Shown piece by piece: positions 9,104 through 44,596 of a stretch of 64,000 nucleotides of DNA. This DNA comes from a virus, in IMG/VR virus record IMGVR_UViG_3300048996_000065, positions 1-64,000 of that record, one strand, 5' to 3'. Each line of letters begins with the position of its first letter. The stretch's first letter is position 1. Position numbers and translations under genes: made by a program. Under the pieces are notes generated by a model, which did not search any database, was not told the DNA's origin, and worked only from the letters and a program-made list of their open reading frames with translations.

Positions 9104-9565
9104 TTAGTCGAGATACGCTTTCACTTTGAGCGGATCGCCTCGGTATCTACCCAGCAGATCCAGATCACGGAAAACGATGAAGATCGCAAACTCGCGGTCG
9201 TTAGTACCCGGAATCGGTAAACGCCACCGATCCCCGCCGTACTTCGTCACGCGCACGAACTCTCCCGGTTCACACCAATCTCCTTCTTTCCAAGATTCCA
9301 GGGTGTCCTGGTTCTTGAAAGCGGTGTCGCCGAGAGCAAGAACTTTAGCAACCTGCGTGCTCCACTGATCCGTCTCTTGAGCATCGTCAGGAATGATGAT
9401 ACCGCCGTCAGACATTTTCTTTGACGTGCGGAGCTGAACAAGAACCCGGTCGCCAAACGGCTCGAACTCCGGGTCTATTGCAGGGAAGGCTGCCGCCAGG
9501 GCTGCCGCATACGCGGCACTAACCTCTTGGGCGGGGAGGCTTTTCAATCGGGTTTGGTTGCTCAT
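9104..9565 (-). CDS. GroES-like co-chaperonin
   Basis: The 153-residue protein contains a Cpn10 core after an unusual 30-residue Ala-rich N-terminal helix. Residues 36-45 (PFGDRVLVQL) match the first strand of GroES. They are followed by a mobile-loop-like segment ending in GGIIIPDDAQE (54-64), and then VAKVLALGD, like the G-V-x-VG-G strand of Cpn10. The C-terminal half is extended compared with the roughly 97-residue host protein. In T4 the analogous gp31 replaces GroES for folding of the large coat protein. Its place between portal and capsid genes supports a capsid-folding job with host GroEL. The start-site Shine-Dalgarno is weak. Confidence 0.75.
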   Translation of the reverse strand: MSNQTRLKSLPAQEVSAAYAAALAAAFPAIDPEFEPFGDRVLVQLRTSKKMSDGGIIIPDDAQETDQWSTQVAKVLALGDTAFKNQDTLESWKEGDWCEPGEFVRVTKYGGDRWRLPIPGTNDREFAIFIVFRDLDLLGRYRGDPLKVKAYLD

Positions 9566-18105: not shown

Positions 18106-18331
18106 GGCATTCCCCGTTTCGGTGATAGATGCAAATGCCATCGCCATGCGGCGTGTCGCGTTGGAAGTAGCGGCAATATGCGACGGTCATATCTGCGGGC
18201 TCGTGCGGTGTCGTGTGCATCACCCCGCGCATATCCGTCCAGCCGTACGTGTAACGTTCTTTGAATCTGTAACGGATGTTGCCCGTCTCAAAGTCGCCCG
18301 TGCTCAATTCCTTCATCAGCTTATCGGTCAT
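18089..18331 (-). CDS. Small protein, unknown
   Basis: The 80-residue protein starts at the ATG at 18331 in an ATGA overlap with the NADAR gene. It contains FETGNIRYRFKERYTYGWTD and later YCRYFQRDTPHGDGICIYHR with two cysteines and histidines that might bind a metal. No family is recognised. It appears co-transcribed with NADAR. Confidence 0.45.
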   Translation of the reverse strand: MTDKLMKELSTGDFETGNIRYRFKERYTYGWTDMRGVMHTTPHEPADMTVAYCRYFQRDTPHGDGICIYHRNGECREETP

Positions 18332-18771
18332 TGCCGTGTCTCCCGCCAAGCGTTGTTGTCCTGTAGCTCCAAGCGCAGCTTCATCAGCAGTTTGCCCAAG
18401 TGGTTCTCGCCGACGCCTTTGCACACGCCCCAATACACGTCGTTCCATACGTTGCCCTCGACTAGCTCCGCACCCCCCGTGTTGATGAGCGCATCGCGAA
18501 AGGGATTGATCGCAAATTTCTTGCGCAGCAAATCCTCCATCACATTCAGCTTAATGCCCTCCCACTCCGGTCGCATTGGTACACGCTTGCCCAGCTGCTT
18601 GGCGTACGCCGACGTTGGAGCGCAGCGTATCTTCTCGCGCTTGCGCAAGTTAGATGTCTTCGCAGCCTGATACGCGTGCTCAACGCTCGGATACACCCAG
18701 CCATCGTACTTGATCGGCACCATCGCGAAGTTGCTAAGAAACGCGTACTTCCCCCGAAAGCTCGTGATCAC
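18328..18771 (-). CDS. NADAR-family protein
   Basis: The 147-residue protein shows the NADAR (YbiA-like) signature. FLSNF is at 11-15, YPSVEHAYQAAK at 27-38 with Glu31, and a C-terminal GNVWNDVYWGVCKG (106-119). Family members cleave N-glycosidic bonds in riboflavin intermediates or remove ADP-ribose from nucleobases. In phages they are suspected of countering ADP-ribosylation or NAD-linked defences. Here it lies in a small-gene accessory cluster, which fits a host-takeover or counter-defence role. Family assignment is strong; substrate is inference. Confidence 0.8.
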   Translation of the reverse strand: MITSFRGKYAFLSNFAMVPIKYDGWVYPSVEHAYQAAKTSNLRKREKIRCAPTSAYAKQLGKRVPMRPEWEGIKLNVMEDLLRKKFAINPFRDALINTGGAELVEGNVWNDVYWGVCKGVGENHLGKLLMKLRLELQDNNAWRETRQ

Positions 18772-36134: not shown

Positions 36135-36650
36135 ATGAGCATAGTATGCGTGGAAGGTTGTGATGGTAGCGGCAAAACAACTCTCATCGAAAAAGCGCGC
36201 GGGTCTCAGAAGGATCGTTACTTCCTTACTGTTCGAGCGTCACGTTATCCCCCCGACGTGTCCACGGCCGTTCGTTATCTGAACTTTGTTACGAGAACAC
36301 ACAGTCGACTTGATGTGGTTCTCGATCGAATTCATTTCATCTCCGATCGCATCTACGGACCCGTTCTCCGTAATGCCGACATCTTCAAAGACTTTTCGAT
36401 CGTCTACGGTTTATCCGAAGTCGACATAGTCGTATATGCGCGACCCCCGCGTGAAGTGATTCTGGAAAACGTTCGCAAGGGAATGCAGCTGGGTGGCGTA
36501 ATCGAAAACGCAGAAGCCATCATCGATCGTTACGATGAACACATGGCCAAGTTGCGTAACGAGGGAGTAACTGTGATGGTTTACGATTACACCTCGGACG
36601 ATCCGGTGGTGTTCTGGAATCACGTCTGGCAAAAAGCCCAAGGGGAATAA
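36135..36650 (+). CDS. P-loop (deoxy)nucleotide kinase, TMK-like
   Basis: The 171-residue protein starts eight bases after GGAG and has a P-loop GCDGSGKT (8-15), a DR-like lid (VLDRIHFISDRIYGPVL) and a thymidylate-kinase-like core. It would phosphorylate a deoxynucleoside monophosphate. In this neighbourhood it could supply dNDPs for normal or modified pyrimidines. Exact substrate unknown. Confidence 0.7.
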   Translation: MSIVCVEGCDGSGKTTLIEKARGSQKDRYFLTVRASRYPPDVSTAVRYLNFVTRTHSRLDVVLDRIHFISDRIYGPVLRNADIFKDFSIVYGLSEVDIVVYARPPREVILENVRKGMQLGGVIENAEAIIDRYDEHMAKLRNEGVTVMVYDYTSDDPVVFWNHVWQKAQGE

Positions 36651-36651
36651 C

Positions 36652-37242
36652 ATGAGCGAACCTTTCAAAAGAATCATGCGCCATCAGGCAATACTAATGG
36701 CCAACTTCCGGGAGATCGAATTCGGGAACGGGTTCAACTTCCCAGGATGGCCGGTCGACCCGGCAAGCATGCAGGGACAGCACGAGATCCGTCGACTCGC
36801 GTGGTGCATTCAGGAGGAGCTGTGCGAGGCCGATGAAGCATCGGACATCGAATCCCACCTGGAGTCCAGACATAAGCTCCTGACGCACAAAGAGATGATC
36901 GATGCGTTGCACTTCATTGCCGAGCTGATGCTAACGCTCGGTTACTGGCCCGAGGATCTGCCGCCGCAACCCGCCATCTTCATGACAGAGATATACACGC
37001 TTCCAGCTCATCTGTATATCACCATGACGGATTTGGGGAAAACGATCAATCTCTGCAAATCAAAACCCTGGAAGCAGTCGTTGAAAACGTTCGATGAGGA
37101 TCAGTTCAAACAAAAGCTTTCTCGCTTCATCTGTTCGTTCTTCCGCACGTGCTACGCCCTGGGCCTGAATGACGAGGTCATTGAAATGGTGTATATGGGC
37201 AAAGCTTACGAGAATCAAGAACGAATCGACGCAGGGGTATGA
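36652..37242 (+). CDS. All-alpha NTP pyrophosphatase (dUTPase/MazG-like)
   Basis: The 196-residue helical protein has the metal-binding pattern EELCEADEA (about 56-64) and EMIDALHFIAEL (about 81-92), like dimeric dUTPases and MazG-type pyrophosphatases. Its length and second helical half favour dUTPase-like dimers over single-domain MazG. It would hydrolyse dUTP or a noncanonical dNTP, fitting the surrounding nucleotide genes. Confidence 0.65.
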   Translation: MSEPFKRIMRHQAILMANFREIEFGNGFNFPGWPVDPASMQGQHEIRRLAWCIQEELCEADEASDIESHLESRHKLLTHKEMIDALHFIAELMLTLGYWPEDLPPQPAIFMTEIYTLPAHLYITMTDLGKTINLCKSKPWKQSLKTFDEDQFKQKLSRFICSFFRTCYALGLNDEVIEMVYMGKAYENQERIDAGV

Positions 37243-37243
37243 C

Positions 37244-38053
37244 ATGTCCTTCTATGCCCGAGACTTTATCGTCGATCTGATCAAACGTGAAGCCTTTCTA
37301 TATGCGGGAGTGCGCAAGATTGTTCAGGGTGTTTCGTGGACGGCTCCGAACCCGTTTCCAACCCTGAAATTCGATGAGCTTGGATATGGAAGTAATAAAT
37401 TCAAGCAACTCCAGAGAAATTACTTCGATCAGGAAGAAGTAAACCGCGTAAAATCGCAGCTAACAAAAAGGAAGCGCGCGGCGTTCACGGCCGTAGCGAT
37501 GAACATGAAAGCGGGTAAGAAAGACTCTCGGAGCATGGGACACTGCATGCAAACGTTGGTGATCAATCGTACACCGAAGGTGACTACGGTTGAGTTGCAA
37601 TATCGATCCACCGAAGCGATCCTAAAGTTCGGTGGCGATATTTGTTATCTTCCGTGGGTGTTCAACCAGCTGGAAATCGAGCCGTCAACGGTGCGATTCC
37701 ATTTCGCTAATGCTTTTATAAGCGGCGTGTATTTCCCTACGCTATTTACGACGTGGAACCCGATCAGCTACCTGGAGCTGCTATGGGCTCACGATCGTAA
37801 GCTCTTCGCCGGCGGTACGCGCTTCCTGTTGCGGAGCGCGTATAAGCGGGACCAGCATTTCCCGTATAGCCCGGAAAACCTGCAACATCGATTTTTGTGG
37901 GAACGAGTCGGACCTCCGACGATCAAGCGAATCAAAGATTACTTGGAAGAAAAACATAAGCTCTTCGGTAAGCCGCTCCCGAAGTTGCATCACAAAAAGG
38001 ACGGTTCTTATATTCCTCGCGGTAAACGAAAACACACTGGAGACGACGAATGA
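37244..38053 (+). CDS. Thymidylate-synthase-fold protein, paralogue 1
   Basis: The 269-residue protein starts six bases after AGGGG. Cys101 (GHCMQTLVI) is followed exactly 20 residues later by Arg121-Ser122 (YRSTEAILKF), the same C146-to-R166 spacing as E. coli TS. Glu124 corresponds to Asp169, and Asp132 lies where TS has Asn177. The C-terminal half has FHFANAFISGVYFP. TS and dCMP hydroxymethylase (T4 gp42) share this fold; Asp at the 177 position is the dCMP-accepting state. Its partner could be the paralogue at 40,139-40,819. Confidence 0.6.
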   Translation: MSFYARDFIVDLIKREAFLYAGVRKIVQGVSWTAPNPFPTLKFDELGYGSNKFKQLQRNYFDQEEVNRVKSQLTKRKRAAFTAVAMNMKAGKKDSRSMGHCMQTLVINRTPKVTTVELQYRSTEAILKFGGDICYLPWVFNQLEIEPSTVRFHFANAFISGVYFPTLFTTWNPISYLELLWAHDRKLFAGGTRFLLRSAYKRDQHFPYSPENLQHRFLWERVGPPTIKRIKDYLEEKHKLFGKPLPKLHHKKDGSYIPRGKRKHTGDDE

Positions 38054-38523
38054 AAGTTGCATTGTGCGGATCTACTCGGTACATGGACCAATTCAACGCT
38101 GCTAACGTAGCGCTCACGCTTGCGGGCCATGTGGTTTATTCGGTTGCTACGTCCACGAAAGGGGACTTCATACCGACGGATGACCAGAAGCTTCTACTCG
38201 ACATGGTTCACTTGCGTAAAATTCACGAAAGTGACATGATCGTGGTCGTCGGTCGTCAAGAAGACGGTTCGTTCTATATCGGCGATTCCACACGACGCGA
38301 AATGATGTACGCGGCCGTGTTTGATAAGGAAATCGTTTTCTACGAACCGAATGGCCACGCTCATGGAGCCAATTGCGAATTCGAGAAAAGAATCAAACGA
38401 GCGAAACAAACGGATGCAGAGCGTGAGTTGTTGGAAAAGGAACGCGAAGTTCGGATGTCCCAGATGATGGGCACATTCGGTTTGGAGGTTTCCCCAGACG
38501 CTGAGAATCCAATCACGAACTAA
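38050..38523 (+). CDS. Nucleoside 2-deoxyribosyltransferase/DNPH1-like hydrolase
   Basis: The 157-residue protein begins MKVALCGSTRYMDQF, with a Rossmann-like alpha/beta layout (LAGHVVYSVA; SDMIVVVG) and YIGDSTRREMMYAA containing the Glu of the NDT family. Relatives cleave deoxynucleoside or nucleotide N-glycosidic bonds, including 5-hydroxymethyl-dUMP in DNPH1. Between two TS-fold genes it may degrade or transfer an unwanted base. Family moderately supported; substrate unknown. Confidence 0.6.
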   Translation: MKVALCGSTRYMDQFNAANVALTLAGHVVYSVATSTKGDFIPTDDQKLLLDMVHLRKIHESDMIVVVGRQEDGSFYIGDSTRREMMYAAVFDKEIVFYEPNGHAHGANCEFEKRIKRAKQTDAERELLEKEREVRMSQMMGTFGLEVSPDAENPITN

Positions 38524-38537
38524 GATTGTCTGGCCCC

Positions 38538-38580
38538 CCTCCAACTCGCTAGCTAGCCTCAGGGTTTGCTCGGTTGGAGG
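38538..38580 (+). terminator. Hairpin upstream of thyX
   Basis: CCTCCAAC (38,538-38,545) pairs with GTTGGAGG (38,573-38,580) across a 27-base loop in the gap between the hydrolase-like gene and thyX. It may reduce read-through or regulate thyX translation. Confidence 0.35.
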
Positions 38581-38605
38581 ACGGGGCTGGGCTTAGGAGC
38601 TGTGT

Positions 38606-39322
38606 ATGAAAGTTGACGTATTGGACCACGGCTACGTGGAGTTCATCGAAGCCTGGGGTACTGGAAGAGACGGGCATGGTAGCGAAGTCGATATGGAACC
38701 CCGCGACTACGAAGTTGGAATCATCGAAGCCGCACGCCAATCGACGCAGGGGTCTTTCAGAGGGTGGGAGGAGGATTGGAAGCTTCTGACATTTCTTTAT
38801 AACAATACCCCACCGCACGCGGGGCCATTCGAGTTCGCCGGCATGACCATCGAAGTACAGGCGCCAATCTTCGTCTTCCGCGAATGGCATCGACACCGAA
38901 CGCAGAGCTACAACGAGATGAGCGCTCGATATACCCCGCTCCCCGACTTGTATTACTATCCTACCGTCGAGCGGATTTTGCGGGATGGTGGAAAGAATAA
39001 GCAGGCTCAGGGAATTGTCCCGTTAGAACGGGGAGACGCCGAAGGAGCAATCCATGCGATTGCCGAAGCTTACGCAGATGCCGAGAGAATCTATCAACAC
39101 CTATTGAAGAAAGGTGTTCCAAAAGAAGTTGCTCGTGTCGTGATGCCCGTTGGGCATTATTCCCGGATGCGTGCGACGGGCAACCTACGAAATTGGCTAG
39201 CGTTTCTGACTCTGCGCTGCGATCCCAACGCTCAATGGGAGATTCAACAATACGCCAACATCGTCGCATCAATCATCGCGAAGAATTTTCCTCGCACGTA
39301 TTCTCAGTGGGTGAAAAAATGA
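38606..39322 (+). CDS. thyX: Flavin-dependent thymidylate synthase ThyX
   Basis: The 238-residue protein starts six bases after GGAG. It has the diagnostic ThyX motif RHRTQSYNEMSARY (96-109) plus the C-terminal active-site region GNLRNWLAFLTLRC. It makes dTMP from dUMP using FAD and CH2-THF. It is embedded between genes for TS-fold proteins that are not ThyX, so dTMP supply and pyrimidine modification appear to be separate functions. Confidence 0.9.
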   Translation: MKVDVLDHGYVEFIEAWGTGRDGHGSEVDMEPRDYEVGIIEAARQSTQGSFRGWEEDWKLLTFLYNNTPPHAGPFEFAGMTIEVQAPIFVFREWHRHRTQSYNEMSARYTPLPDLYYYPTVERILRDGGKNKQAQGIVPLERGDAEGAIHAIAEAYADAERIYQHLLKKGVPKEVARVVMPVGHYSRMRATGNLRNWLAFLTLRCDPNAQWEIQQYANIVASIIAKNFPRTYSQWVKK

Positions 39323-40149
39323 CTATATATCCATCTTTCGAAGCGGCAGTCAATGCTGCACGTCAACGGCTAATCACCGTTGGCCAGTGGGTGAAGGGCG
39401 ATCAGTGGCAAAGCATGGATGTGTCTGACAAGCCCGAAATGGTAACGAGAGAGGTTTTAAATTTCTCGTTCCAAGTCCCCGTTCAGGGTGAATCGCTTAA
39501 AGCACTGCGAGCTGACATTAAACCGAATCTGCCGTGGGCCGATGACCATTTCTCGGAACGTGTTAGCGGCCAACCCGCAAACCCCGGTGAGCAGTGGGCG
39601 AAGTGGCCATGGGGAAATAGCGCCGATAAGTTCAGGGTTGAGCAAGGCGGGCAATTTTCGCATACGTATATGGAGCGCTTCTGGCCGAAGTTTGCGAATG
39701 TAGCTGGCGACGGTCCGAACGGCGAGCCGCTGGAGCACCAGATAAAGCGGGGCATTCGCTATCGGTACGGGGATCTTCGAGACGTCGTCAAGCATCTTCG
39801 TAATCACCCGCTGTCCCGTCAGGCTTATCTTCCGATCTGGTTCCCTGAGGATACCGGAACCGTGCACAAGGAAAGAGTCCCATGCACCCTGGGTTATCAC
39901 TTCATTCAGCGGAGCGGGTTTCTTCACACCAATTACTACATTCGATCCTGCGACGTTGTCCGGCATTTCCAGGACGATATCTATCTGGCCGTTCGATTGA
40001 AGCTTTGGCTGCTGGACGAGCTGCGCAAGATCGATCCAATGTGGAAAAAAGTTAGTCCAGGGTTCTTCACAATGCATATCACGTCGTTGCATTGCTTTAA
40101 GAATGATATCACCAAATACGTGAAGGACGGCAAATGGTGTGTTGAATAA
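39319..40149 (+). CDS. dCMP hydroxymethylase-like TS-family protein
   Basis: The 276-residue protein (ATGA overlap at 39319) contains VPCTLGYHF with Cys189. Twenty residues on comes Arg209-Ser210-Cys-Asp212 (YYIRSCDVVRHFQDDIYLAV). Asp220, 11 after Arg, is where TS has Asn177 and T4 dCMP hydroxymethylase has Asp179. Like gp42, the catalytic Cys is followed by Thr, and RS-x-DVV and F-x-x-D recur. It therefore looks like a deoxynucleotide hydroxymethylase acting on dCMP. The N-terminal half contains WADDHFSERVSG. Activity is inference. Confidence 0.7.
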   Translation: MTIYPSFEAAVNAARQRLITVGQWVKGDQWQSMDVSDKPEMVTREVLNFSFQVPVQGESLKALRADIKPNLPWADDHFSERVSGQPANPGEQWAKWPWGNSADKFRVEQGGQFSHTYMERFWPKFANVAGDGPNGEPLEHQIKRGIRYRYGDLRDVVKHLRNHPLSRQAYLPIWFPEDTGTVHKERVPCTLGYHFIQRSGFLHTNYYIRSCDVVRHFQDDIYLAVRLKLWLLDELRKIDPMWKKVSPGFFTMHITSLHCFKNDITKYVKDGKWCVE

Positions 40150-40819
40150 ATTCAATCAAGACGTGCATCTCTGGGAACACGAAAGTATCGCCGATTTTTG
40201 GAGAACCCATGTCCCTACCTACAAATCCAAAAGCATTAGACCCTTCTTTGCTCGATTCCCTTTCGAAGGATTGGAAGGATATGCCAAAGCGATTCGAGCC
40301 GTCTCTGCGAAGAGATCAGATAACCGCATCCGAAACTATGTTGACTCATCGGAGATGTTACGGGTGCGGCAACGTCTTCATGGTGGATCCTCGCAGTTCT
40401 CAAAAGGAGTGCGGTCCGGGATGTCAGTACGAGACGGTGAGATTAAATCAAAAAAGAGAAATGGAGCTAAAGACGTTTCAATCCGTTTCGGAGTCAGTAA
40501 GACAGGACATGGTTATTCGGGTGAACGAGGCGATTTCTGCCTCGTTTCGGCAGTTTACAGCGGAAACACCCTCGCCTTCTTTTACCGTTCCATCGAGCTT
40601 ATCGGCGGATTCGCTTTTGACACGGTTCTCGTCGACCACGTCTGCAAGGAACTCGGGATCAAACCGAAATTCATCGAGATCTGGGCCACCAAAGCTTTTG
40701 TGTTCGCCCTCAAAGGCAACAGCAACGAAAAACTTTACCCCAAACTCAAAAGGATCTTTCGAACAAAGGAAGGACCAAAAGCAAAACCCCTAACTTTTGA
40801 TGGCAACTACGATGGCTAA
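40139..40819 (+). CDS. Thymidylate-synthase-fold protein, paralogue 2
   Basis: The frame from a GTG at 40139 encodes 226 residues; an ATG at 40421 would give 132. Cys134 (GDFCLVSAVYSG) and Arg150-Ser-x-Glu (FFYRSIELIGGFAFD), with Asp161 eleven residues after Arg, parallel paralogue 1 (YRSTEAILKFGGD). NYVDSSEMLRVRQRL upstream also matches its NYFDQEEVNRVKSQL, favouring the longer start. KAFVFALKGNSNEKLYPKLK ends the core. Much of the gene overlaps the zinc-finger frame at 40,209. It may form a complex with paralogue 1. Confidence 0.55.
   Translation: MLNKFNQDVHLWEHESIADFWRTHVPTYKSKSIRPFFARFPFEGLEGYAKAIRAVSAKRSDNRIRNYVDSSEMLRVRQRLHGGSSQFSKGVRSGMSVRDGEIKSKKRNGAKDVSIRFGVSKTGHGYSGERGDFCLVSAVYSGNTLAFFYRSIELIGGFAFDTVLVDHVCKELGIKPKFIEIWATKAFVFALKGNSNEKLYPKLKRIFRTKEGPKAKPLTFDGNYDG
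40209..40793 (+). CDS. Treble-clef zinc-finger protein overlapping TS paralogue 2
   Basis: The ATG at 40209 has GGAG at a five-base spacing. The N-terminal 100 residues look real: RRCYGCGNVF, then PRSSQKECGPGCQYETVRLN, giving C-x2-C-x13-C-x3-C followed by a basic helix. After about residue 125 the frame becomes Ser/Thr/Arg-rich low-complexity that shadows the TS-like protein in the other frame. No stop occurs until 40,793. Either an independent small zinc-finger protein with a neutral tail, or dual coding. Confidence 0.45.
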   Translation: MSLPTNPKALDPSLLDSLSKDWKDMPKRFEPSLRRDQITASETMLTHRRCYGCGNVFMVDPRSSQKECGPGCQYETVRLNQKREMELKTFQSVSESVRQDMVIRVNEAISASFRQFTAETPSPSFTVPSSLSADSLLTRFSSTTSARNSGSNRNSSRSGPPKLLCSPSKATATKNFTPNSKGSFEQRKDQKQNP

Positions 40820-41282
40820 GGTTGTAAGTTCGCTGAAATTTAACCTGATCTTCGAAGCCGCCAACTACGACGGTTCGATAGTCAGGGAATGGCAGTGCGT
40901 GAAGTACCCGTCACTGTATTGCCGAACTTTGGCAAAATCCAAATTGCCTTTGATCCGAGCCTATTACGTGAAGAAGCCCGATAATCACATAAAAGACTTC
41001 GGAACGCTGGAAGGCGCTTTACCGATGGCTAGAAAAACTACTGGAGAATTGCATGAAACGGTTAATGTTCGACATCGAAACTCTGTCAACGTTCCCAAAC
41101 GCGGCTCTGCTGGCCGTAGCGATCGTAGTGATGGACGACAAAAAACCAAAACAGCAGGACTGGATGGCGCGCGGGTGGTTCATCGATCCCAACCTGACGA
41201 TCGGCCACGTAAATCCCGAGACGATGGATTTTTGGAACGATCAACCAAACCAAGTAAAAAGCCTGGTCTTCGCCGGAAATGA
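40800..41282 (+). CDS. Small protein, unknown, with overlapping 3' end
   Basis: Starts at 40800 or 40812 are possible; none has a strong Shine-Dalgarno. The first 75 residues look folded (SSLKFNLIFEAANYDGSIVR, SLYCRTLAKSKLPLIRAYYV). The remaining residues are basic low-complexity inside the exonuclease gene in another frame. Probably a small TS-neighbour protein with an unimportant tail. Unknown function. Confidence 0.35.
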   Translation: MATTMAKVVSSLKFNLIFEAANYDGSIVREWQCVKYPSLYCRTLAKSKLPLIRAYYVKKPDNHIKDFGTLEGALPMARKTTGELHETVNVRHRNSVNVPKRGSAGRSDRSDGRQKTKTAGLDGARVVHRSQPDDRPRKSRDDGFLERSTKPSKKPGLRRK

Positions 41283-41619
41283 TACGCCGCGTGAAGTGCT
41301 GCAATCGATCAACGGATTTCTAGGGTCCGCTATCGACGATGTGGAGAACGGCGATTATCTCTGCTACGCTGATCCTGCCGCCTTCGACTTCCCCATCCTA
41401 ATCTATCAGTATCAGCAGTGCGGAATGATTCCAGGCTGGCATTGGCGTAAGCAACGCTGCATGGGCGCAATGCGTAAAGCGCTGGAAGAAGAGGCGGAGT
41501 GGGAGATCGATCGAGTTGAAGCTGAGCTCAAGCATCACCCGGTTCACGACGCGCTGGCCCAGATGCACGAGCTGAAGAACGTGCTGAAGGCTTACCATTC
41601 AATCAAGGTGCTGAAATGA
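41053..41619 (+). CDS. DnaQ-like 3'-5' exonuclease
   Basis: The 188-residue protein starts six bases after GGAG. It has FDIETLSTF (Exo I Asp6-x-Glu8), an Exo II-like DPAAFDFPIL and an Exo III-like VHDALAQMHELKN. The layout resembles RNase T/Rv2179c-type DEDDh exonucleases. It would degrade DNA or RNA ends during replication or host-nucleic-acid turnover. ATGA overlap with dCMP deaminase. Confidence 0.7.
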   Translation: MKRLMFDIETLSTFPNAALLAVAIVVMDDKKPKQQDWMARGWFIDPNLTIGHVNPETMDFWNDQPNQVKSLVFAGNDTPREVLQSINGFLGSAIDDVENGDYLCYADPAAFDFPILIYQYQQCGMIPGWHWRKQRCMGAMRKALEEEAEWEIDRVEAELKHHPVHDALAQMHELKNVLKAYHSIKVLK

Positions 41620-42059
41620 AAACCAAACGCATTAGCCGTGAGCAAGCGCTAATGGAGATGGCGATTTCCGCTTCAAGACGCTCAACCTGTCAACGACGCG
41701 ATGTAGGGGCGTTGATTGCAATCGACGGGCGTCCCGTGGTGACCGGGTATTCGGGAGCACCCTCTAAGATGATCGATTGTTTAAAAGGCGGATGCATCCT
41801 CGGACCCGACGGTGGTTGTATCAGAACCGTGCATGCCGAAGCAAACGCTATCGTGTTCGCAGCTCGCAAGGGAATTGCGTGCGAGGGAGGAACGCTATAC
41901 ACCACCCTTAGTCCTTGCCCCGATTGCGCTAACATGATCATCAATGCGGGCATCACTCGAGTGTGGTATCTGGAACCCTACCGTATAGTAGATGGTATAA
42001 CCATCCTCCGTGAGATGGGGATTGGTTGCGATCACCTGTTGTTCGATTTCGATCTATGA
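41616..42059 (+). CDS. dCMP deaminase
   Basis: The 147-residue protein has HAEAN (73-77) and SPCPDC (99-104), the zinc site of deoxycytidylate deaminases, plus TCQRRDVGALI. It converts dCMP to dUMP, feeding ThyX. It could also compete with the hydroxymethylase-like enzyme for dCMP. The stop overlaps the polymerase start. Confidence 0.85.
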   Translation: MKTKRISREQALMEMAISASRRSTCQRRDVGALIAIDGRPVVTGYSGAPSKMIDCLKGGCILGPDGGCIRTVHAEANAIVFAARKGIACEGGTLYTTLSPCPDCANMIINAGITRVWYLEPYRIVDGITILREMGIGCDHLLFDFDL

Positions 42060-44596
42060 ATCGCAATCCTAAGTGCACGGATTGCAAATTTCACGAAACG
42101 GCTAAAACCGTGTGTCTTCCGGGGGAAGGACCGAAGAACGCACGAGTGATGATTATCGGAGAGTCCCCCGGCTTCGATGATGACCATACTGGAAGACCCT
42201 TTCAGGGTAAAGGCGGACGCTTGCTCAAGGAGGAGCTGGTCCGAGCTGGAATTGCACCGGAAGAGTGCTATATAACGCACACCGTTAAATGCGCTCCGCC
42301 CGGTGACTCGGAACCGAAGGCGCCAGAACTCAAAGCATGCCGCAAATACCTGGAATCCGAGCTGGCCGAGGTGAAACCCGAATACGTGATAGCGCTCGGC
42401 CGCATTGCATCGAAAGCGGTTCTAAAGGAAACGAAGATAACCGAGGTACACGGACAGATCAAGGAATTTAAAGATCTCCTGGGATCTTTCAAGGGCATGG
42501 CAGCATTCAGCCCCAACTTTTGTTTACGTGATCCGTCGAAGCTCCCGATTCTCCGTAAAGATCTGGGGCGAGTCATCGGAGAAGTGCTCGGTAAGAAAAA
42601 AGAAGTACGTGCGCCGTTTAAATGGCGTGAGGTCAACGACGAAAATATCCATGAATTCTATCGAGCGTTGATCAATTGCGAGTGGTTCTCATTCGACTTA
42701 GAAACGTCTGGGCTCGACTGGTTCAATCCCAAGGGTTGGATTACATGCTTGAACATGTCGTTCGATCGGGACGGTGGAACCTGGGTTCTGCCGATGACTA
42801 TGCCATTCTCGCCATATGCATTTTTCGATAGACAGAAATTCATCATTCGCAAAATTGCGAGACTGCTTAAGGACGGTAAGAAGAAAGGATGCGCACATAA
42901 CGGCAAGTTCGATAATCACTGGCTCTGGCGTATCTTCGGGGTCCTATTTCCGCTTCACTTCGATACCATGCTGGCGTCGCATTGCATCGATGAGAATCGA
43001 GCTCACGCCCTGGACTCGCTTGCTACGTCCTACCTCGATGCCCCGTACTACGATATCCCGCTGCATTGGAAGCAGGGGCAATGGAAACCCGGCGAAGGAA
43101 CGCGCGCAAACGTGCGTACGGTTTACCGTTACGGCGCTAAAGACGCCTATTACACGCTTACGATGCGTCCGATCATGGAGAAGGAGCTTCGTACCGATCC
43201 GCAGGTGTTCAGACTTTTCCGACGTTTGGTGATGCGCGCCGCCCGTGCTTTCCATCGTATCGAAGACAACGGATTGTATGTGATCCGCAAACGCTTCGTG
43301 GATACCCGGAAGCAGGTGGTGATCGATCGAGATGCGGCATTGGTTGATTTAAATTGCATGGCCGGCAAGGTTGATGTCCGATCCGGGGTGAAGCGCAAGA
43401 TCAATTGGAATTCACCGCAACAGGTAGCAAAGCTTTTATTTGAGAAGCTAAAGCTGCCCGTGATCGAACGTACGGAAACCGGAGCACCCTCCACCGGCGA
43501 GAACACGCTGATTGCATTGAAGAATAAGCACCCGGTTGCGAATGCGTTGGTAAAATATCGGGAGTTAGATAAATTTCTGGGAACCTACCTGGATGGTTGG
43601 AAATCGCTGATGCATAAGGATCGAGTGTACTTCAGTTATAAGTTGCACGGAACCGTAACAGGGAGATATTCGTCTAGGTTGCATCAGACACCACGAGATA
43701 AGCGCATCCGTACAACGGTGTCCGCTCCGGACGGGTGGACATTCGTTCAGGGTGACTTCTCGCAAGCTGAGTTGCGCATCGCTGCAATTCTATCCGGCGA
43801 CCTAGAAATGTTACGATGCTTCGCCGAAGGTATCGACATCCATTGGAAAACCCTGATGTATGTCATTCAATCCGGGGGCGTAGGGGAGTATGTCAAGCAT
43901 GTCAAAAAGACCGCTCGTGTACTTGCGGGCAAGAAAGTCGGGTTTAACGATGCTATTGAGCTTGTGCTCCAAGCCGGACATAAGCGTTGCATTGAGATCT
44001 GGGACGGATGGAAGGAAGCTCGTAAAAAAGCGAAAGGCATCAACTTCGGCTTCGTGTACGGCATGCGAGAAAATAAGTTCATCGAGTACGCAAAGGCTAA
44101 TTACGACTTCGAGCCCACTCAGGAAGAAGCTCGATTGATTCGACGTGCCTACTTCCAGCTGTATCGCGGATTGGAGCCGTGGCATGAGAAAATGCGCAAG
44201 CTTGTACGGCTCGACGGCTCGGTTAGGAGCTTAAGCGGGCGACTGCGACGATTGCCCGGGGTTAGCTCCTCGGACCGTTCGCTACGCTCCGAATGCGAAC
44301 GGCAAGCGATAAATAGCCCCGTACAGGGGTATATCGGCGACCATAAAGCGATGGCGCTAGTAGAGTTGGCCGATAAGCTGGATTGGAATCGTTCGCGTCT
44401 GGTCGGTGAGGTACACGATTCCCTGCTGTTCTGGGTACGTACCGAGCTGCTAGCCGAGGAGCTGCCGAAGATCGCCGCAATCATGCGAGACCCCGAATTG
44501 CTCAAAGAATTCAAAATCGATCTCCCCGTGAAAATCGAGCCGGAACTGGAAGTAGGTGACTGGGGTGCGGGTAAGGAGTGGAAAATGGCAGCGTGA
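42056..44596 (+). CDS. UDG-domain DNA polymerase I fusion
   Basis: The 846-residue protein starts at the ATG at 42056 (ATGA). Residues 1-190 form a family-4/5-type uracil-DNA glycosylase with Fe-S cysteines (CTDC, THTVKC, LKACRKYL) and GESPGFDDDHTGRPF. Next comes a DnaQ-like 3'-5' exonuclease (FDLETSGLDW, CAHNGKFDNHWL, YGAKDAYYTL), then a family A polymerase with GDFSQAELRI (motif A), RKKAKGINFGFVYGM (B) and GEVHDSLLF (C). All catalytic motifs are present. SPO1-like phages carry similar UDG-polymerase fusions. It replicates phage DNA; the UDG part may inspect or edit uracil. Confidence 0.85.
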   Translation: MNRNPKCTDCKFHETAKTVCLPGEGPKNARVMIIGESPGFDDDHTGRPFQGKGGRLLKEELVRAGIAPEECYITHTVKCAPPGDSEPKAPELKACRKYLESELAEVKPEYVIALGRIASKAVLKETKITEVHGQIKEFKDLLGSFKGMAAFSPNFCLRDPSKLPILRKDLGRVIGEVLGKKKEVRAPFKWREVNDENIHEFYRALINCEWFSFDLETSGLDWFNPKGWITCLNMSFDRDGGTWVLPMTMPFSPYAFFDRQKFIIRKIARLLKDGKKKGCAHNGKFDNHWLWRIFGVLFPLHFDTMLASHCIDENRAHALDSLATSYLDAPYYDIPLHWKQGQWKPGEGTRANVRTVYRYGAKDAYYTLTMRPIMEKELRTDPQVFRLFRRLVMRAARAFHRIEDNGLYVIRKRFVDTRKQVVIDRDAALVDLNCMAGKVDVRSGVKRKINWNSPQQVAKLLFEKLKLPVIERTETGAPSTGENTLIALKNKHPVANALVKYRELDKFLGTYLDGWKSLMHKDRVYFSYKLHGTVTGRYSSRLHQTPRDKRIRTTVSAPDGWTFVQGDFSQAELRIAAILSGDLEMLRCFAEGIDIHWKTLMYVIQSGGVGEYVKHVKKTARVLAGKKVGFNDAIELVLQAGHKRCIEIWDGWKEARKKAKGINFGFVYGMRENKFIEYAKANYDFEPTQEEARLIRRAYFQLYRGLEPWHEKMRKLVRLDGSVRSLSGRLRRLPGVSSSDRSLRSECERQAINSPVQGYIGDHKAMALVELADKLDWNRSRLVGEVHDSLLFWVRTELLAEELPKIAAIMRDPELLKEFKIDLPVKIEPELEVGDWGAGKEWKMAA

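Follow-up and report, generated by a model that had tools for sequence, protein, structure and literature searches.

Why should a virus that already encodes the flavin-dependent thymidylate synthase ThyX carry three more proteins of the thymidylate synthase (TS) fold? The question is raised by a block of genes at positions 36,135–42,059 of a virus DNA, namely the 64,000 bases (hereafter the window) taken out of the 65,459-base IMG/VR virus record IMGVR_UViG_3300048996_000065. The block is a compact run of plus-strand genes, often touching or overlapping their neighbors, in which ThyX (38,606–39,322) is positioned between TS-fold genes—that is, with P1 (37,244–38,053) upstream, and P3 (39,319–40,149) and P2 (40,139–40,819, with a GTG start) downstream. 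A sequence-only reading of the window had explained the three proteins by synthesis of a modified pyrimidine that is incorporated into the DNA. Modified-pyrimidine synthesis is still the best explanation, and can be narrowed to cytosine because P1, P2, and P3 have all retained an acidic residue at TS position 177; the three proteins can also be divided into a folate-competent P3 and the reduced P1 and P2. We consider it highly probable that the block is a cytosine-nucleotide modification cassette.

P3 and its active site

P3 matches the Pfam TS family (2.3e-6) and phrog_160 (1.3e-29). In a profile search against PDB sequences, its nearest solved relatives were the CMP hydroxymethylase MilA of mildiomycin biosynthesis and thymidylate synthases, the first of the latter being 1njc, which we take to be the Asn229-to-Asp TS mutant. 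Among 87 P3 sequences, E80, W96, Y117, R167, C189, R209, D212, D220, and H258 are each kept in 86–87, including the nucleophile C189 (86/87), the arginines R167 and R209 (both 87/87), and, on the folate side, E80 and the Asp169-equivalent D212 (both 87/87). The second interface Arg (R127 in TS) is replaced by Gln in 86 sequences. Instead of the Asn177 and His147 of the thymidylate synthase signature, P3 has Asp at position 177 (the selector D220) and Thr or Ser at position 147, each in 86 of the 87. E80 was assigned as the catalytic Glu by its spacing from Y117, which is 36 in 66 of the 87 sequences and equal to that of Glu58–Tyr94 in Escherichia coli TS and of Glu60–Tyr96 in the phage T4 enzyme. 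MAFFT aligns E80 elsewhere; the resulting reading of the Glu60 position as Asn was rejected, E80 being invariant and its Tyr spacing that of the E. coli and T4 enzymes.

Asn177 reads uracil and Asp177 cytosine, and Asp177 together with a changed position 147 best marks the TS homologues of modified-cytosine contigs in the MetaGPA survey, in which these homologues lie beside pyrophosphohydrolase and dCMP deaminase domains, as in the present cassette (PMC8670742). In T4 deoxycytidine monophosphate (dCMP) hydroxymethylase (gp42), specificity is set by Asp179 and the nucleophile is Cys148; P3 shares with gp42 this Cys, the Asp179-type selector, and equivalents of Glu60 and Asp171, at an identity of only ~22% (PMC6400193). 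The preference of MilA for CMP is set by Ala176 and Lys133 (PMC5175136), in place of which P3 has Ser and Arg, like the deoxy-specific enzymes. Since the Asp selector, the folate-side residues, and the Glu–Tyr spacing are all kept, P3 is read as a complete folate-dependent cytosine enzyme, likely a dCMP hydroxymethylase or methylase. Hydroxymethyl is preferred over methyl only by analogy; on that footing, dCMP hydroxymethylase is the best reading. The earlier description of this protein as dCMP-hydroxymethylase-like agrees with the conserved Asp177, Cys, Glu, and folate Asp.

The exception among the 87 sequences at Cys, Asp177, and Tyr is a second P3 paralogue (locus L008, 7283–7999), which lies between P1 and an intact P3 and is apparently dead (Cys to Thr, Asp177 to Asn, and Tyr94 to Leu). 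It is a fourth kind of TS-fold protein beside the cassette.

Fold, residues, and distribution of P1 and P2

Searches of Pfam, PHROGs, and NCBIfam gave no functional match for P1 or P2, which are therefore invisible to a Pfam-based survey such as MetaGPA; their profile searches against PDB sequences gave matches at chance level only. AlphaFold2 models, for which the inputs were alignments of the window and the fetched loci only, reached a mean predicted local distance difference test (pLDDT) score of 90.2 and a predicted template modelling score of 0.85 for P1, and a pLDDT of 81.7 for P2, with 150 residues at 90 or above. The sequence-only reading had staked its claim on structure predictions returning the TS fold. 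When the models were compared with the PDB by Foldseek, the best 50 matches listed for P1 and for P2 all belonged to the TS superfamily (probability 1.00). The top matches of P1 are TS and T4 dCMP hydroxymethylase, with AfhB, a flavin-dependent dCMP hydroxylase, also among its matches; those of P2 are the AfhB entries 9iqu and 9iqc, and then TS. A phage PMBT14 protein in BFVD resembles P1 with a template modelling score (TM-score) of 0.77. On these models, the assignment of the TS fold to P1 and P2 holds, as it does for P3 by Pfam and PHROGs.

The two proteins are, as judged from profile comparisons, homologous to each other: a P1 profile built without P2 matches the P2 of the window at 6e-7, the reverse search reaches a P1 at 4e-9, and hhalign gives 97% for the pair. 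When the P1 profile was scored on TS-family sequences, the median was 1.4 bits, whereas reversed, shuffled, or unrelated sequences gave −1.65 to −1.9. In all 87 of the aligned TS-family sequences, which include E. coli TS, T4 gp42, and RB69 ORF048c, the Arg and Asp of P1 land on TS Arg166 and position 177.

The residues that handle the nucleotide are strictly kept. In P1 (Cys101, Arg121, and Asp132 in the window, together with an invariant Tyr60), the Cys and the Arg are present in 38 of 38 sequences and the acidic selector is Asp in 36 and Glu in two; in P2 (Cys134, Arg150, and Asp161, with a KGNSNEKL motif), the corresponding counts are 13/13, 14/14, and 14/14. The folate side is different. 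At the Asp169 position, where TS holds folate, most P1 sequences carry Glu or Tyr. Between the second strand and the helix before the Cys strand, P1 and P2 have ~30 residues with no strictly conserved Glu or Trp, as opposed to ~73 in TS, where this stretch carries Glu58 and Trp80; P1 has a helical C-terminal extension instead. Both proteins thus appear to have lost Glu58, Trp80, and Asp169, by which a folate-dependent TS or hydroxymethylase is recognized, and with them the region on the folate side. The residues that are kept suggest that P1 and P2 may still form a Cys–C6 adduct with a cytosine nucleotide, without the usual use of folate. Chemical precedent exists in the DNA C5-methyltransferases, which can swap the hydroxyl of 5-hydroxymethylcytosine for thiols via a like adduct.

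The surroundings of P1 were compared in 40 loci from viral contigs and phage genomes. P3 lies downstream of P1 on the same strand within 2 kb in all 40, and is accompanied by a dCMP deaminase in 38, PolA in 38, one of two pyrophosphatases in 36, and the kinase in 32; P2 is found in 12, the NDT-like gene discussed below in seven, and ThyX in three. Recurrence of this core set beside P1 and P3 across the loci shows that the cassette is not a chance cluster. Annotated phages carry P1 as a "hypothetical protein" directly ahead of "thymidylate synthase" (Muddy gp47, Cleo gp42, BigChungus gp49, and Zuko gp75); in Triscuit (gp64), one small gene separates it from P3, and in Lebethron (CDS0045), it stands ahead of an unnamed P3. 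All of these proteins are matched by the P1 profile at E < 1e-46. By tblastn, the window P1 retrieved 18 records and Cleo gp42 retrieved 85, from several genera and with some GenBank/RefSeq duplicates, placing P1 in ~100 sequenced phage records, mostly under the label "hypothetical protein". An automatic pipeline had apparently already noticed the fold, since two of the matched records are labelled "pyrimidine hmase synthase". In Muddy, a therapeutic mycobacteriophage, gp47 (L100, 4033–4926) stands just before gp46, a "thymidylate synthase" with Asp177.

On a P3 tree of 91 rows, the presence of P1 is explained by only three changes, and a single P3 clade (support 100/99) holds 47 of the 48 rows without P1. 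P1 was found nowhere in 23 records of this clade, many of them large contigs and some maybe fragments, whereas three positive controls were found. P1 has thus long and stably accompanied P3 in the cassette, and P3 can do without it. The P1-less clade (L012–L062) comprises mostly larger-phage contigs of up to 434 kb with a quite different gene neighborhood, and its cytosine chemistry may differ.

A proposed pathway and its alternatives

In the proposed pathway, a modified deoxycytidine nucleotide would be made before DNA synthesis. P3 would transfer a one-carbon group, most likely hydroxymethyl, from methylene-tetrahydrofolate to C5 of dCMP. P1 and P2 would bind the cytosine nucleotide covalently through a Cys–C6 bond, with the acidic residue at the base, and would then carry out a further folate-independent step, for example replacement of the 5-hydroxymethyl hydroxyl via an exocyclic-methylene intermediate. 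The P-loop nucleotide kinase (36,135–36,650, + strand; phrog_761 thymidylate kinase at 2.8e-18, with P-loop matches only in Pfam) would convert the modified monophosphate to the diphosphate, and the all-alpha dUTPase/dCTPase-type pyrophosphatase (36,652–37,242, +; Pfam dUTPase_2 at 3.9e-8 and phrog_12184 at 4.2e-9) would remove the triphosphates dCTP and dUTP. The dCMP deaminase (41,616–42,059, +; Pfam 5.6e-22 and phrog_174 1.5e-46) would provide deoxyuridine monophosphate for ThyX (Pfam Thy1 at 6.2e-40 and phrog_85 at 1.4e-48), with the two together supplying deoxythymidine triphosphate. A family A DNA polymerase with an N-terminal UDG-superfamily domain (42,056–44,596, +; PF00476 at 1e-67 and PF03167 at 8.6e-28 in the members scanned) would incorporate the modified nucleotide; its open reading frame spans 42,026–44,596, with the likely start at the ATG at 42,056. 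Every gene named by the sequence-only reading is present where it was placed, with family matches for the kinase, dUTPase_2, ThyX, P3, and the dCMP deaminase.

In T4, hydroxymethylcytosine is supplied by the dCMP hydroxymethylase gp42, the dCTPase gp56, the kinase gp1, and a dCMP deaminase. A functionally equal set would be expected here, from distant or unrelated parts and with P1 and P2 as extras, for which we know of no T4 counterpart. A glycosyl- or carbamoyltransferase as tailoring enzyme was also considered and set aside, with neither of them, nor a sugar pathway, recognized by Pfam in the window. In this respect the window differs from T4, for want of a glucosyltransferase; from RB69, which carries sugar genes; and from the MetaGPA contigs, which pair TS with a carbamoyltransferase (PMC8670742). 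The deposited annotation of the complete Lebethron and Cleo genomes, with many genes hypothetical, likewise contains no glycosyltransferase, carbamoyltransferase, or sugar pathway.

For the pathway as a whole—that is, with P3 acting first, P1 and P2 performing the folate-independent step, and the kinase, pyrophosphatase, deaminase, and ThyX in support—the case is evenly balanced, and a catalytic role of P1 and P2 after P3, without folate, is put at the same level or slightly less. A bolder proposal, which we regard as doubtful, is that P1 and P2 form a new class of folate-free TS-fold enzymes, the conserved Cys of which would attack 5-hydroxymethyl- or otherwise 5-substituted dCMP, so that the 5-substituent is swapped at the nucleotide level.

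Several points weigh against this account. Gene content, homology, conserved residues, and conserved linkage are observed, and the TS fold of P1 and P2 is predicted; every reaction, every product, and the presence of the product in DNA are what we infer. The sequence of P3 does not separate a hydroxymethyl from a methyl product. With hhalign, P1 and P2 against P3 gave only 0.6% and 0.3%, respectively, neither significant, and fold prediction was therefore used for the question of the TS fold; the P1–P3 alignment, though of low probability, is in catalytic register. TM-scores of P1 and P2 to known enzymes are only ~0.4, a value that may be expectable where part of the TS fold is missing. The apparent loss of the folate-side region is read from residue identities and spacing rather than from a structure with bound ligand. 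P3 occurs without P1 throughout one large clade. Finally, a further tailoring enzyme could exist among the hypothetical genes, because many genes of the window and its relatives lack known function. A literature search on DNA modification in Muddy, PMBT14, or Serbin found nothing usable that would settle the base for these relatives.

Alternatively, P3 alone might make the final base, 5-hydroxymethyl- or 5-methyl-dCMP, with P1 and P2 serving as structural or regulatory partners. In TS, an Arg from the neighboring subunit completes the active site, for which reason P1 and P2 could be subunits of a hetero-oligomer with P3; P1 usually lies directly ahead of P3 and the two genes often overlap, as they would for subunits, and the dead P3 of L008 indicates that non-catalytic TS-fold partners exist. 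However, P1 and P2 strictly retain the Cys, the Arg, and the acidic selector, which a purely structural partner could spare, and P3 occurs without P1 in a whole clade, the 23 P1-less records of which weaken the case for P1 as an obligate P3 subunit. A mere partner role is thus possible, but we consider it unlikely. Improbable, in turn, is that P1 and/or P2 are flavin-type dCMP 5-hydroxylases yielding 5-hydroxycytosine, not a 5-hydroxymethylcytosine derivative, like AfhB of RB69-type phages (phage HY126; RB69 ORF048c). AfhB has the TS fold, acts on dCMP, and, like P1 and P2, is without Asp169 (its sequence there is RSQN); it is also the best structural match of P2. Yet it has no significant sequence similarity to P1 or P2, the profiles of which score at background against RB69 ORF048c, so that the identification of P1 as AfhB was dropped; its folate-side region is of normal length, unlike that of P1 and P2; and a hydroxylase would leave the constant presence of P3 beside P1 unexplained.

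Ordinary nucleotide supply, with P3 as a thymidylate synthase, ThyX as its back-up, P1 and P2 as decayed relatives, and unmodified DNA, would account for the dUTPase, dCMP deaminase, ThyX, and kinase as pool genes and for the usual annotation of P3 relatives as "thymidylate synthase". We regard it as very improbable: position 177 is Asp, not Asn, across the P3 family, and P1 and P2 are strongly conserved rather than decayed. Moreover, ThyX or ThyA lies beside P3 in the window, in L083 and L090, and in Triscuit, and deoxythymidine monophosphate is already provided, because ThyX is present here and a canonical ThyA stands beside P3 and P1 in Triscuit.

If the cassette does modify cytosine as proposed, a widespread "hypothetical" family, found in phages of actinobacteria and proteobacteria and in one that has been used in patients, helps to alter the cytosine of phage DNA, with consequences for the resistance of these phages to restriction and CRISPR and for their engineering, and the well-studied TS fold gains a new chemistry. 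Were the folate-free swap to be correct as well, ~100 records, including that of Muddy, would carry a cytosine hypermodification of a new kind, made without glycosyltransferases. The proposal is testable at once, because cultured relatives on laboratory hosts exist, among them Muddy on M. smegmatis mc2 155, Cleo on G. rubripertincta, and PMBT14 on P. fluorescens.

Neighboring genes and other features

The gene at 38,050–38,523 (+), which shares its first 4 bases with the end of P1, encodes a small NDT-like protein, a putative nucleotide N-hydrolase with conserved CGSTRF and YxGxSTxRE motifs. The NDT/DNPH1 label given to it in the sequence-only reading was not confirmed: neither Pfam, searched up to E = 1, nor the PDB gave a match for the protein, and one relative gave a weak match to DUF4406 (0.032). 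The Glu within YxGxSTxRE is invariant, and may be the counterpart of the NDT Glu. MilA and MilB show that a TS-type hydroxymethylase can pair with an NDT-type N-glycosidase (PMC4081090); the MilB motif F-L-(G/A)-(G/A)-P-F-(R/K) is absent from the present protein. Removal of dCMP or of a deaminated by-product by this protein is only a suggestion. Overlaps of 4–11 bases are found at this junction and at the ThyX/P3 and P3/P2 junctions.

A Rv2179c-like 3′-5′ exonuclease (41,053–41,619, +; Pfam 2.5e-20) has a clustered homologue in loci L007 and L091 only, and is probably a neighbor outside the pathway. The start of its gene is overlapped in another frame by a small open reading frame (40,797–41,282), the first half of which looks, on visual inspection, like a small protein that L001 and L003 have between TS and dCMP deaminase. 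Elsewhere in the window, a NADAR-domain protein, of a family tied to ADP-ribose chemistry, is encoded in the early region at 18,328–18,771 (Pfam 6e-22), and a phage-encoded Cpn10-like co-chaperonin (9,104–9,565; Pfam 2.5e-9) adjoins the structural genes.

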